32,749 bases of DNA. It comes from Chloroflexota bacterium. GTDB taxonomy: Bacteria > Chloroflexota > Chloroflexia > Chloroflexales > Roseiflexaceae. The stretch covers positions 1 to 32,749 of the forward strand of contig JAUQOW010000022.1 in NCBI GenBank assembly GCA_030550675.1. Reading direction: 5' to 3'. The stretch's first letter is position 1; each line of letters starts with the position of its first letter. The translations under genes were made by a program, and so were the position numbers. Below the pieces are notes generated by a model, which was not told the origin of the DNA, did no database searches, and saw nothing but the letters and a program-made list of their open reading frames with translations. Below are positions 23,208 through 29,113 of the stretch, one piece after another.

Positions 23208-23212
23208 TCAGT

Positions 23213-23295
23213 TCTCGACTCTCAGTTCTCAGTGCTCGGCTCTCAGTTCTCAGTTCTCAGTGCTCGGCTCTCAGTTCTCAGTTCTCAGTGCTCTT
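23213..23295. repeat. Tandem CTCAGTTCTCAGTGCTCGG repeat before mobA
   Basis: Roughly 80 bases made of the words CTCAGTTCTCAGTGCTCGG and CTCAGTT, repeated three times with register shifts, running right up to the ATG of the next gene. There is no recognisable ribosome-binding site in it. Repeat-number changes would alter the distance between promoter and start codon. Confidence 0.8.
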
Positions 23296-23934
23296 ATGTC
23301 TACTTCCTGCATCATCATTGCTGGCGGCTCAAGCCAGCGCATGGGGAGCGATAAGCGCTGTCTGCGGCTGTGGGGCGAGCGCGGTCCGACGCTGCTGGAA
23401 CATATGGTTGCGCAGGCAGCCCGTTTCAGTGATGATGTGGTTGTCGCCTTGAACGACCCGGAAGCCTGGAATGGATTAGCGGCGCGTCTGGTGCGCGACG
23501 AGGCGGCGGGGGGCGGTCCGCTCGCCGGGTTGGCTGCCGGTCTCGCAGCAAGCCGGTACGAGTATGCGCTGGCGCTGGCGTGCGACATGCCGCTGGTGCA
23601 GGATGCGCTGATCGATGCGCTCCTGGCGTATCCGCGCCCCTATGATGCGCTGGCGCCGCTCCGCCCTGACGACGGCGCGCGCGCGCCGCGCAACCGGCTG
23701 GCGGCAGAGCCGCTCCTGGCGGTCTATCGGCACACGTGCCTCCCCGCAATCCGCGACTGCCTGCGGCGCGGCGCGCGCGCGCTCGTAGATCCGTTGGAGA
23801 TGGTCGATGCCCGGTATCTTGCGCCAGAGGTCTGGCGACCGTATGATCCGCAGGGATTGTCGTTCATTAACGTCAATCGACCGGAGGATGTCGCTCGGGT
23901 GCAGATGATTCTCGCCAGCCGGCGCGGGGGGTGA
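23296..23934 (+). CDS. mobA: MobA-like molybdenum cofactor guanylyltransferase
   Basis: A 212-residue protein. The ATG at 23296 is preferred over the GTG at 23260, which would encode a repeat-derived leader. The nucleotide-binding signature IIIAGGSSQRMGSDK opens the protein, ALACDMPLV (about 95-103) is the metal-binding Asp loop, and EPLLAVYRHTCLPAI and FINVNRPEDV fit the family's later motifs. MobA attaches GMP to molybdopterin to make the guanine dinucleotide cofactor used by DMSO-reductase-type enzymes. The next gene begins within its stop codon (TGATG), so it heads a three-gene cluster. A related NTP-transferase specificity (such as MocA-like) cannot be excluded. No usual ribosome-binding site is seen. 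Confidence 0.85.
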   Translation: MSTSCIIIAGGSSQRMGSDKRCLRLWGERGPTLLEHMVAQAARFSDDVVVALNDPEAWNGLAARLVRDEAAGGGPLAGLAAGLAASRYEYALALACDMPLVQDALIDALLAYPRPYDALAPLRPDDGARAPRNRLAAEPLLAVYRHTCLPAIRDCLRRGARALVDPLEMVDARYLAPEVWRPYDPQGLSFINVNRPEDVARVQMILASRRGG

Positions 23935-25403
23935 TGATGCTGACCATTGCGCACATTCGATCAGCGGCGCCCGTCGCAGGCGCGTCTTTCGGTCTGATCG
24001 GCGCACTGGCATTGTTGTGGATCTCGCGGCGCGAGCCGCTCTCCCTGCCGCCGCTGGCGTATTTTGATGCGCTGGGAGCATTCTTCGTCTTCGCCACGTG
24101 GTGCGGAATAGCGTTCCGGGCAGCGCTGCGCGTACCAGCAGAACCAGGGTGGCGTCTCTGGTTGACGGCGCTGGCGCTGACGGTCGCGTTCGTCACGTCG
24201 CTGACTCCGCTGATCATCGCAGTTTATGCTCTGCTGGCGCTGATGCACATGCCGCCGGTGCGTCGCGGTAAATTGCTGGCTGCACTCCGCAGCGCCGTCG
24301 TCCCGCTGTTGGCGGCTGCGGCGCTGGCAGCCGGGTACGGCGCGCTGGCATTGCGCGGCGCCGTGCGCTTTGATGCGCCGCTGGCTGGCGCTGCGCTTGA
24401 CTCGCTCGTCTTCTGGTTCGTCCTGCTGGCTGCCGCGATCCCGCTCCTCCCATTCGCGGCGTCGCCGGGAGATAGGCAAAGCCCTCCTGCGCGGGTCAGC
24501 CTGGACCTGTTCGCCTTTGCCTGGCTCTACCCGCTCATGCGGCTGTACACCCTCAGCCCCTGGAACGAAGGATGGTCATTCGCAACGCTGACGCTCGGCG
24601 GCAGCGCGATGCTCTGGCTGACGCTCGGCGCGCTGACGGCGGCGGCGCGACCGGAACGCACGGAGCGCAACCGCCGTCGACTGCTCGCGCTGGCGCTGGC
24701 GGGGATCGGTCTCAGCAGCGGCGCCGGTCTGGCGGCGGCGTGTTACGCGGCGCTGGTCTATCTGCTGCTCGTGGTAACTGACGAGACCGGCTCGGAGACG
24801 GATTCAACTACTGGCGCAACCGTGTGGGGATTGCCGCCATCAGTGCCGTCCTGGTTGCTCTCTGGCGCCTTTCCGCTGACAGCGCCCTTCATCGCCGCCT
24901 GGATGATCATCGGGGCGGGCGCGGCTGGCGGCGTCACGATGCTGACCGCCGTCGCCTGGCTGACAATGCTGGTTAGCGCGCTGCCGGTTGTGATCGACTC
25001 GCCAACTGTTGCGTCGTATCGCCGATGGATCGGCGGCGGCGTCAGCCTGGCGCTCGGCGTGACATCCCCGCTGGTTGTGCGTCTTCTCATTCAGCCGGTG
25101 ATCGAGCAGTTGCAGGGCGGGCTGAGCGTCTACGGCGACGTCAATGTCTGGCCCTGGGTCGGGCTGGCGATGGTCAACTCGGCGCGCACCAGCATCACGG
25201 CGCTGCCGACCATCGGCGCCGCCGGGTTGATGGTCGTGCTGAGCGCAATGGTCTATCTGCTGGCGCGGTTGTTGAATCCGCCGCCGCCGACCTCTTCTTC
25301 CTCTGCCCCGACAGCATACGACGAGGTGGTGCGGGACCTTCGCCGCGCTGTTCCGTGGCTGGGCGAACCGGCAACGAAAGCATCGGACCATGACGATCGC
25401 TGA
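23934..25403 (+). CDS. Divergent complex-I/Ech/Hyf antiporter-like membrane subunit
   Basis: A 489-residue protein with about twelve hydrophobic segments and a short charged tail. The order of several segments resembles NuoL/M/N, HyfB or EchA. WLYPLMRLYTLSPWNEGW with a following GGSAMLW fits the region after TM7. RRRLLALALAGIGLSSGAG and then AAACYAALVYLLL fits the KrLLAYSS...Q.G region. FPLTAPFIAAWMIIGA fits the G-PL-GF---W segment. The Lys residues expected in TM7 and in the KRLLAYSS motif are not present, so proton pumping as in complex I is doubtful. Assignment is from pattern memory only. It overlaps mobA (TGATG) and the next gene (14 bases), so the three are coupled. It could instead be an unrelated polytopic membrane protein. 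Confidence 0.55.
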   Translation: MMLTIAHIRSAAPVAGASFGLIGALALLWISRREPLSLPPLAYFDALGAFFVFATWCGIAFRAALRVPAEPGWRLWLTALALTVAFVTSLTPLIIAVYALLALMHMPPVRRGKLLAALRSAVVPLLAAAALAAGYGALALRGAVRFDAPLAGAALDSLVFWFVLLAAAIPLLPFAASPGDRQSPPARVSLDLFAFAWLYPLMRLYTLSPWNEGWSFATLTLGGSAMLWLTLGALTAAARPERTERNRRRLLALALAGIGLSSGAGLAAACYAALVYLLLVVTDETGSETDSTTGATVWGLPPSVPSWLLSGAFPLTAPFIAAWMIIGAGAAGGVTMLTAVAWLTMLVSALPVVIDSPTVASYRRWIGGGVSLALGVTSPLVVRLLIQPVIEQLQGGLSVYGDVNVWPWVGLAMVNSARTSITALPTIGAAGLMVVLSAMVYLLARLLNPPPPTSSSSAPTAYDEVVRDLRRAVPWLGEPATKASDHDDR

Positions 25404-26226
25404 GTTGTTGTCGTTTCTGGGGCTGGCGTGGTCACGGCTGCTGATCTTCCCCGGCGGGGTGTGCGCGCTTATCGCCGTGTGGCTCGCGGAAGCGTTCGAG
25501 CGACGGCGTGCGCAGACCGGATTCCTTTCCTTTCCCACGTCGTGGCTTGCCTCGCCGATCACGGCGAGCGCAGTCGTTCTCCCGTGGCTCGGCGTGGCGC
25601 TTCTGTCGCTGCCAGGCGCAACGGCGCTGTCGCGCCCCATCGACCTGGTTGCCGCCATTGGACTGCTGGAGTGGTCCCGGTTGCTGGCAATCGCCGCCGA
25701 TCTGCAGCGCGGCGACCGCGCGCGCGGCGTCCAGCGACTGGCGGCGGCGCTGAACGGCTATCCGCCGCTCATTCTTTCGCTTCTCGTCATATCACTGGGA
25801 GCAGGAACGCTGGAGGTTGCGGGATTGCTGCGCATCCCGGAGAGCGCCGCTCCTCTTCAGCAAACGGCATGGTTCTGGATCGGCGCGGGGGCGCTGATCC
25901 TCACCCTGCCGCCGCTGATCGAGGTTGGACCATTTGCGCTTGATGCACCCGACGAACTACGCCCTGGTCTGCGTTTGCGGATGCTGGGGTTCATCCTGAT
26001 CGCCGCGCTGCCGGGGATTGCGTTGCTGACCCGCGATGGCGCCGGGGACTGGTGGCGCATTGCTTTACCGCCGCTGACGATCAGCGCAGCGCTGTGGTTC
26101 TTTCACCGCAGCGCGCATCATCAGCCTGCGCTGCGGTGGGCGCGCATGTATGTCGGACTCGACCTGATCCTGCTGCTGGCGCTGCTGGCAGCCGGACTGA
26201 TCGCGTTGCAGGCGCGCCTGGCGTAG
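25390..26226 (+). CDS. Divergent NuoH/HyfC/EchB-like membrane subunit
   Basis: A 278-residue protein with about eight hydrophobic segments, starting inside the end of the previous gene. Similarities to the quinone-site subunit NuoH, or HyfC/HycD/EchB, are AEAFERRRAQ after the first segment, the stretch GVQRLAAALNGYPPLILSLL (compare SREx...EPxLLLxL in HyfC) and IEVGPFALDAPDELRPGLR (compare the PFDxPEAExEL-G signature). The key acidic residues of these motifs are partly replaced. The gene order, antiporter-like then NuoH-like, is that of echA-echB and hyfB-hyfC. No hydrogenase, NuoB/C/D/I or iron-sulfur partner is present in the window; the next gene is convergent. Function is unknown, and a vestigial or novel membrane module is inferred. 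Confidence 0.55.
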   Translation: MTIAELLSFLGLAWSRLLIFPGGVCALIAVWLAEAFERRRAQTGFLSFPTSWLASPITASAVVLPWLGVALLSLPGATALSRPIDLVAAIGLLEWSRLLAIAADLQRGDRARGVQRLAAALNGYPPLILSLLVISLGAGTLEVAGLLRIPESAAPLQQTAWFWIGAGALILTLPPLIEVGPFALDAPDELRPGLRLRMLGFILIAALPGIALLTRDGAGDWWRIALPPLTISAALWFFHRSAHHQPALRWARMYVGLDLILLLALLAAGLIALQARLA

Positions 26227-28031: not shown

Positions 28032-28355
28032 TTACTCGGCAAACAATTCAGCCAGCACCGCCAGCGCCTGTTGCTGCGTGCTGCGGTCAATCCGTCCGAG
28101 ACGTTTGATCAGCCGACGACGGTCAATCGTGCGAATCTGCTCCAGCGCAATGTATGCATCACGATCCTCGAAGCGGCAGGCGACGCGCGTCGGATATGCA
28201 CGCGATCGGGTCATCATTGGCGCCACGATGACCGTCTGAATGGCTTCATTCAGTTCATCCGGCGAGATAATCAGACAGGGGCGCGTTTTCTGGATTTCGG
28301 CGCCAACCGTCGGATCGAGCTGGACGAGAAAGACGTCAAACCGCCTGACTACCAT
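28032..28355 (-). CDS. MazF/PemK-family toxin, mRNA interferase
   Basis: A 107-residue protein from the ATG at 28355; a GTG two codons upstream is an alternative. The SH3-like barrel motifs of the family are present: RRFDVFLVQLDPTVGAEIQK, KTRPCLIISPDELN, TVIVAPMMTRSR and DAYIALEQIRTIDRRRL. The Arg in TRP and the Thr/Ser in the TR-S loop are the residues used for RNA cleavage in MazF. It cuts single-stranded RNA at short sequences when free of its antitoxin. The start overlaps the end of the antitoxin gene by seven bases. The target sequence of the interferase cannot be predicted. Confidence 0.93.
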   Translation of the reverse strand: MVVRRFDVFLVQLDPTVGAEIQKTRPCLIISPDELNEAIQTVIVAPMMTRSRAYPTRVACRFEDRDAYIALEQIRTIDRRRLIKRLGRIDRSTQQQALAVLAELFAE

Positions 28356-28612
28356 TCCCACTCAGTCTCCTCCCAGGTTGTCAGGTTGGTATCGGGCATC
28401 AGGAGACGATCATCGCCCTGCTCCGCCATCTGCCGGAATGCTTCCGCCCATCCGGCGCGCGGTCGCTTGCCGCGCCGAACGATCAAATAGTCGTCCCGGA
28501 TTTCGAGTTCGACGACGTCGGTCAACTGTAATTGTTCAATCAACGCAGCCGGAATGCGAATTCCCTGGGAATTGCCAATCCTGATCAGGCGGGTCTGAAT
28601 CACGTTTGCCAT
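28349..28612 (-). CDS. MazE/AbrB-family antitoxin
   Basis: An 87-residue protein with a swapped-hairpin AbrB DNA-binding domain at the N-terminus (IRIGNSQGIRIPAALIEQLQ, VVELEIRDDYLIVRR) and a flexible acidic tail (TTWEETEWEW) that in MazE-type antitoxins wraps around the toxin. AAGGAGGT-like AGGAGG precedes the ATG. It lies upstream of and overlaps the toxin gene, the usual order for repression and neutralisation. A perfect CTGTAATTACAG palindrome just before the gene is a likely autoregulatory operator. The adjacent cmr locus on the other side of a repeat cluster is divergently transcribed. Confidence 0.93.
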   Translation of the reverse strand: MANVIQTRLIRIGNSQGIRIPAALIEQLQLTDVVELEIRDDYLIVRRGKRPRAGWAEAFRQMAEQGDDRLLMPDTNLTTWEETEWEW

Positions 28613-28621
28613 ACCAACCTC

Positions 28622-28659
28622 CTGTAATTACAGTGTACTTACTCTTCCAGATTTGTCAA
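28622..28659 (-). promoter_or_regulatory. mazEF promoter and probable operator
   Basis: On the minus strand, TTGACA (28654-28659), a 16-base spacer and TACACT (28632-28637) form a good sigma-70 promoter. The transcript start falls in the perfect palindrome CTGTAATTACAG (28622-28633), immediately followed by the AGGAGG ribosome-binding site at 28618-28623. Binding of the MazE/toxin complex there would block transcription. Confidence 0.75.
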
Positions 28660-28700
28660 ACCAGCGAGGTTGCTTTGCGCTGTCAACGAAGAGGGAAGCG

Positions 28701-28770
28701 AGCGGCGGGCTAAAGCCCTTGCTCAGGACATTGAAGCCCCTGCGGGGCTCGCACGATTTCAGCCAGGGCT
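28701..28770. repeat. Dispersed repeat, family B copy 3 (truncated)
   Basis: Starts GAGCGGCGGGCTAAAGCCC-like and runs through the hairpin AGCCCCTGCGGGGCT to CACGATTTCAGCCAGGGCT; the right end motif GGGCTTCAGCCCG is lost. It is within a 537-base non-coding gap between mazE and cmr1. Confidence 0.8.
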
Positions 28771-28841
28771 GCCGCATACGGCCCGCCACCTGGCGACCGA
28801 CGAGGATCAAGAAAAAAACCGGCACGTCCATGCTGCCGAGC

Positions 28842-29000
28842 CGCGCGTTCTGTGAGCGGCGGGATCAAGCCCTTGCTCAGGACATTGAAGCCCCTGCGGG
28901 GCTCGGACGATTCCTCTGCGCTGCGGGATCAAGCCCTTGCTCAGGACATTGAAGCCCCTGCGGGGCTCGCACGATTTCAGCCAGGGCTTCAGCCCGTAAC
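28842..29000. repeat. Family B repeats in tandem (copies 4 and 5)
   Basis: Two copies with identical 45-base cores (GGGATCAAGCCCTTGCTCAG...) are offset by 64 bases. The first has the flank CGCGCGTTCTGTGAGCGGCG; the second ends with GGGCTTCAGCCCG, the partner of the left end CGGGCTAAAGCCC. They sit about 90 bases before the cmr promoter. Confidence 0.85.
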
Positions 29001-29083
29001 ATCCTGGCACTATCGAACGATTTTCCTAATGTTCATCAGCCCGCGACGAGACGGCGGTTCCCGACGCATTGTGCCTGCACCTC

Positions 29084-29113
29084 TTGACCTGCCGTTTACC
29101 CTGATCGTATAAT
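29084..29113 (+). promoter_or_regulatory. Promoter of the cmr operon
   Basis: TTGACC (29084-29089), an 18-base spacer and TATAAT (29108-29113). Transcription should start near 29120, giving a leader of about 30 bases that contains GTGAGGGGGG before the ATG at 29150. Confidence 0.85.

Follow-up and report, generated by a model that had tools for sequence, protein, structure and literature searches.

A divergent HyfB/HyfC-like membrane gene pair in the Chloroflexales and its probable kinship with an Ehr-type operon

Energy-converting hydrogenase-related (Ehr) complexes are related to the group 4 hydrogenases, and some of them have lost the ligands of the Ni-Fe centre (PMC6349859). The genome paper of Chloroflexus aurantiacus reports two complex I clusters, and its passages on complex I and hydrogenases contain no hydrogenase-related complex (PMC3150298). 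Here, two membrane genes, named A and B, were analysed in a 32,749-nucleotide stretch of DNA (the window) from a Roseiflexus-like genome (5.06 Mb, 446 contigs; nearest named relative Roseiflexus sp. SKYB12), together with their relatives in other Chloroflexota. The two overlapping membrane ORFs that a sequence-only reading had placed after mobA were confirmed as hydrophobic genes with orthologues across the order and dN/dS ratios of coding genes (positions in Table 1).

A begins (GTG 23931 or ATG 23934) where mobA ends with a TGA stop codon (23932-23934), and because of this overlap a single message probably serves the translation of both genes in Roseiflexus; A and B in turn overlap by 14 bases. 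Both A and B are strongly hydrophobic, with 10 and 7 segments, respectively, in a simple hydropathy scan. The best NCBIfam matches of the mobA-like ORF were MobA models, every one of them under its cut-off, while direct scans matched A and B to no Pfam or NCBIfam family; a weak Nitrate_red_gam match was obtained for 3 of 27 relatives of A. Elsewhere in the window, short tandem repeats resembling CTCAGTTCTCAGTGCTCGG lie upstream of mobA (23208-23296), two small minus-strand genes (28032-28612) have MazF-like and AbrB/MazE-like translations, as in a toxin-antitoxin pair, and a repeated stretch (28653-29112) has a translation that repeats KPLLRTLKPLRGS.

Table 1. Position and annotation of the genes in the window and of the order-wide hydrogenase-related operon (Prob, hhalign probability).
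Feature	Location	Strand	Pfam match	Other evidence or remark
mobA-like NTP transferase	23260..23934	+	PF12804 6.3e-31	likelier start, ATG 23299
Gene A, degenerate HyfB/NuoL-type antiporter-family membrane protein (predicted), 490 aa	23931..25403	+		hhalign to L587; A+L587 profile vs PDB; conserved residues
Gene B, degenerate HyfC/NuoH-type membrane protein (predicted), 278 aa	25390..26226	+		hhalign to H272; B+H272 profile vs PDB; conserved residues
Operon loci across the order	L136:6388-12742; L140:8216-16520; L141:1-4508 (window genome G000, contig C101); L142; L213-L232	minus (L136)		
Operon large subunit, HyfG-like			PF00346 5.5e-39	hhalign to HyfG, Prob 100
Operon L587			PF00361 1.7e-5	hhalign to HyfB/D/F, Prob 93-98
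Operon HyfE-like protein, 240 aa				weak likeness; hhalign to HyfE, Prob only 11
Operon N487			PF00361 1.6e-20	hhalign to HyfF, Prob 99.7
Operon small subunit, HyfI-like			PF01058 3.4e-15	hhalign to HyfI, Prob 98.4
Operon H272			none	hhalign to HyfC, Prob 47.6
Operon end, ABC ATPase and membrane protein				membrane protein taken as permease of the ABC ATPase

Among 301 Chloroflexota genomes, A was found in 26, all of one order, and B in 19, with one weak match (E 0.001) outside that order. Profile searches recovered A in 57 of the 82 Chloroflexales genomes and in 44 of the 56 good ones. Wherever both genes lay on one contig they were adjacent, in the same order and closely spaced or overlapping. 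Of 20 loci in a second set, 18 had a recognisable B, and the two without it include one very short contig. A and B are real genes under purifying selection: dN/dS between the window and the SKYB12 copy was 0.217 for A, 0.198 for B and 0.16 for mobA, and reached 0.308 for A and 0.226 for B against a more distant Roseiflexus.

When the same genomes were searched with PF00361, most of them yielded two highly divergent members in addition to ordinary complex I and Mrp-type genes. The hydrogenase-related operon encodes, in this order, a HyfG-like large subunit, L587, a HyfE-like protein, N487 (HyfF-like), a HyfI-like small subunit (in part of the loci), H272, an ABC ATPase and an ABC permease; the hhalign references were the Hyf subunits of E. 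coli and relatives from Chloroflexota. The small subunit was not recognised in most Chloroflexaceae loci, and Herpetosiphon carries the operon in two separate pieces. The RICGxC...CxAC motif of the large subunit and all four cysteines of the small one are retained in most of the Roseiflexaceae examined, and Herpetosiphon has lost most of the Ni-Fe and Fe-S ligand residues. Across the operons the ligands range from intact to lost. None of the six genomes of the Herpetosiphon-like genus g4 (G034, G043, G078, G102, G110, G281) and none of the 11 of the Roseiflexaceae genus g2 has HypD, a maturation factor needed for the Ni-Fe centre, although H272 is present in ten of the g2 genomes. In these two lineages the predicted complex is unlikely to act as an ordinary Ni-Fe hydrogenase, a state for which PMC6349859 uses the term Ehr. 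The pair had been described as having no hydrogenase or quinone-oxidoreductase partner, which stands for the window and fails for the genome, where this operon with paralogues of A and B lies elsewhere; A-B was found beside the Ehr-type operon in none of the loci examined.

Profile-profile comparison (hhalign) aligned A with L587 over 426 columns (Prob 92.9, E 3.6e-7), with similar values in the run that included reversed and shuffled controls (Prob 94.4, E 8.8e-8) and lower ones for the widest A family (Prob 82.6, E 9.7e-6). With enlarged families, B aligned with H272 over 235 of 276 columns (Prob 93.7, E 1.8e-7). The pairing was specific, A matching only L587 and B only H272, and all other tested pairings with the families of the complex and with complex I NuoH and NuoL/M remained below Prob 8; direct comparisons of A or B with the Chloroflexales complex I NuoL/M or NuoH gave Prob 0.1-0.2. 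Real alignments scored 38-68, whereas reversed and column-shuffled target alignments reached 10-22 and a family of unrelated ABC permeases stayed at background (13-18). As judged from these profiles, A is a paralogue of L587, and B of H272. The likeness to antiporter subunits and to NuoH/HyfC that had been seen by eye in A and B is thus beyond chance, given the matches through L587 and H272 and the negative controls.

The connection to the complex I and group 4 hydrogenase superfamily runs through the same two proteins. Against the PDB (177,635 sequences), single-profile searches gave nothing decisive, neither A nor B alone reaching significance and the sole match of B being 6u8y_M at E 0.034. 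The joined A+L587 profile matched antiporter-type chains of MBS, Mrp and complex I from E 2.3e-19, including 6u8y_X and 7qru_A. The joined B+H272 profile matched HycD, the formate hydrogenlyase subunit 4 (7z0s_D, 2.7e-9), MbhM, also named Mbh13 (6cfw_M, 4.8e-8), and MbsM, the NuoH-like subunit of MBS (6u8y_M, 7.2e-5), with nothing else under 0.4; it was also collinear with HyfC (Prob 62, E 7.5e-5). L587 itself aligned with NuoL/M at Prob 99 (E 2e-18). In other Chloroflexota, ORFs of three genomes (G084, G112, G232) were matched by both E. coli HyfC and the B/H272 profile, which bridges the families. Profile homology thereby assigns A, only through L587, to the NuoL/HyfB antiporter-like superfamily (PF00361), and B, through H272 and the joined profile, to the NuoH/HyfC/EchB superfamily (PF00146); as L587 and H272 themselves contribute to the power of the joined profiles, both assignments are transitive. 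A tree built from B, H272 and HyfC placed each family in a single clade (supports 100/99, 99/97 and 100/99); as long branches meet there, no branching order among the three is claimed. AlphaFold models of A and B were poor (pLDDT 37.6 and 39.7), because only two sequences were used as input.

The residues on which pumping depends in these families were largely missing. Lysine occurs twice in A (positions 114 and 483), both times outside the predicted membrane segments, and nowhere in B. In alignments that are weak, the columns of the NuoL/M TM5 Glu, TM7 Lys, TM8 His and TM9 Lys hold non-ionisable residues (Ala, Val, Leu, Gly and others) in L587 and N487 and mostly in A, where the TM7 column has D in 5 of 47 and K in 2 of 47 sequences. 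Neither L587 nor N487 retains the TM12 position, which is not mappable to A. The conserved ionisable proton-path residues of the NuoL/HyfB family (TM5 Glu, TM7 Lys, TM8 Lys/His) were thus for the most part not found in the alignment columns of A, which bears out the earlier remark that the lysines of the antiporter core are not visible. Nor did B show the PFDxxEAExEL acidic loop or the E-channel acids of the NuoH/HyfC/EchB family; the window copy reads GPFALDAPDEL at the place of the loop, a region that is gapped or dissimilar in most relatives. What is conserved is R204, W215, G223, P315, W324 and R446 in A, and GxxWxRLLxxPGG, R16 and D85 in B, D85 being its sole near-invariant acid. With the pumping residues missing, A-B is predicted not to pump protons by the canonical mechanism.

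The genes around A-B varied with the family. A mobA gene adjoined A in 6 of 48 loci, two of which (L048 and L211) are apparently the same contig, leaving five genomes, or about 5 of 46, all from Roseiflexus or a single genus related to it. The gene directly upstream of A in 19 Chloroflexaceae loci (e.g. L050:11679-12674) encodes a ParA-like ATPase that carries a zinc-ribbon motif at its C-terminus, and a 208-aa convergent gene without Pfam match was located downstream of B in 15 loci of this family (L050:8903-9526). In Herpetosiphonaceae and another family, the place directly upstream of A was taken by LysM/polysaccharide-deacetylase-like proteins (L065:10600-12231, L062:7206-8946), one of the LysM proteins having a polysaccharide-deacetylase-like part; these domain names were read from the sequences. 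No gene was conserved with A-B across the order in the neighbourhoods read, and no catalytic or Fe-S hydrophilic subunit gene stood beside the pair in the 48 loci. The earlier question whether the pair always occurs with mobA is answered in the negative, the Chloroflexales neighbourhoods showing local linkage only, and a general link between A-B and mobA is rejected on these counts.

The reading that we favour, with moderate confidence, is that A-B is an ancient, non-pumping paralogue of the HyfB-like and HyfC-like subunits of the Ehr-type complex, perhaps accessory to it. We see a doubtful, though serious, alternative in A-B as an independent two-subunit membrane complex, such as a channel, carrier or sensor, of the same ancestry and in which the hydrogenase-related complex is no longer involved. 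Such independence would agree with the separation of A-B from the Ehr-type operon, with neighbours that change by family, from mobA to the ParA-like ATPase and the LysM/polysaccharide-deacetylase-like proteins, and with conserved residues in A and B that differ from those of L587 and H272. H272 was detected in 77 of the 82 Chloroflexales genomes and in all 56 good ones, 12 of which gave no match to A; A-B is therefore dispensable for the complex, and the H272 gene is kept without it. Since all good genomes have H272, co-occurrence is uninformative on a link between the pair and the complex. Against independence stand the derivation of A and B from two subunits of one same complex and the absence of any other partner or substrate gene conserved with them.

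Other explanations fare far worse. It could be argued that the resemblance to the complex I superfamily merely reflects the shared composition of Ala/Leu-rich membrane proteins, as single-family PDB searches were weak and no confident fold was obtained, but this is very unlikely given that reversed or shuffled alignments and unrelated membrane families produced no signal, and that the matches are collinear, long and subunit-specific, with the expected subunits as PDB matches. A role with MobA in molybdenum-cofactor supply or for a molybdoenzyme, which the sequence-only reading had raised, draws on the overlap of the mobA stop with the start of A in the window; it is highly improbable, as so few genomes, all of two genera, have mobA upstream and other families have the pair without it. 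Hardly any more credit can be given to A-B as a decaying, functionless remnant: the core Lys and Glu are lost and some genomes lack the pair, among them every one of the 11 in a Roseiflexaceae genus, yet the frames are open and conserved across the order, dN/dS is 0.20-0.31, residues are invariant and the A/B overlap or close spacing is preserved, so that the earlier word "remnant" does not apply.

Under the favoured reading of an accessory module, A-B would have descended as an ancient copy of two membrane subunits of the hydrogenase-related complex. That A and B are constantly adjacent and derive from two subunits of a single complex suggests that they act as one membrane module, and they may form a heterodimer through preserved packing surfaces, which would comprise the invariant Trp, Gly and Pro residues and the Arg residues of A, and the N-terminal WxRLLxxPGG segment and D85 of B. 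In the least certain step, this accessory or alternative module might assemble with the complete Ehr-type complex, or with a sub-complex of it, and have a docking or structural role there.

These results suggest that a HyfB-HyfC (NuoL-NuoH) pair can be maintained by selection throughout an order once its ionisable core and the genes of its redox partners are gone, and that subunits of this type may serve a function other than redox-driven pumping. We tentatively consider, at somewhat less than even weight, that A-B is a membrane-only, two-subunit derivative of the superfamily, devoid of redox subunits and pumping residues, in a role that is not known for it (membrane docking, channel or sensor), beside an unusual order-wide hydrogenase-related complex encoded with an ABC transporter. 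The pair also pointed to that operon, which is present across the order, in a lineage of filamentous phototrophs.

Among known systems, HyfB-HyfC (HycC-HycD) and EchA-EchB resemble A-B in having two membrane subunits of the antiporter and NuoH/HyfC families in the same order. The antiporter-then-NuoH-like order proposed earlier for the pair agrees with hyfB-hyfC of E. coli, and presumably with echA-echB. In contrast to Hyf, Hyc and Ech, A-B has no nearby hydrophilic, catalytic or Fe-S subunits and lacks the core Lys and Glu, and unlike HyfC and EchB, B of most relatives has no recognisable PFDxxEAExEL-type loop. NuoL/M/N and NuoH of respiratory complex I would belong to the same superfamily as A-B, through L587 and HyfC-type proteins, although neither A nor B directly matched the Chloroflexales NuoL/M or NuoH profiles. 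Mrp antiporters and the MBS and MBH of Pyrococcus furiosus provided the best PDB matches of the joined profiles, but those systems possess ionisable transport residues and full complexes. The description of Ehr complexes (PMC6349859) fits the Chloroflexales operon with L587 and H272, whereas A-B stands outside the operon and consists of two membrane subunits only.
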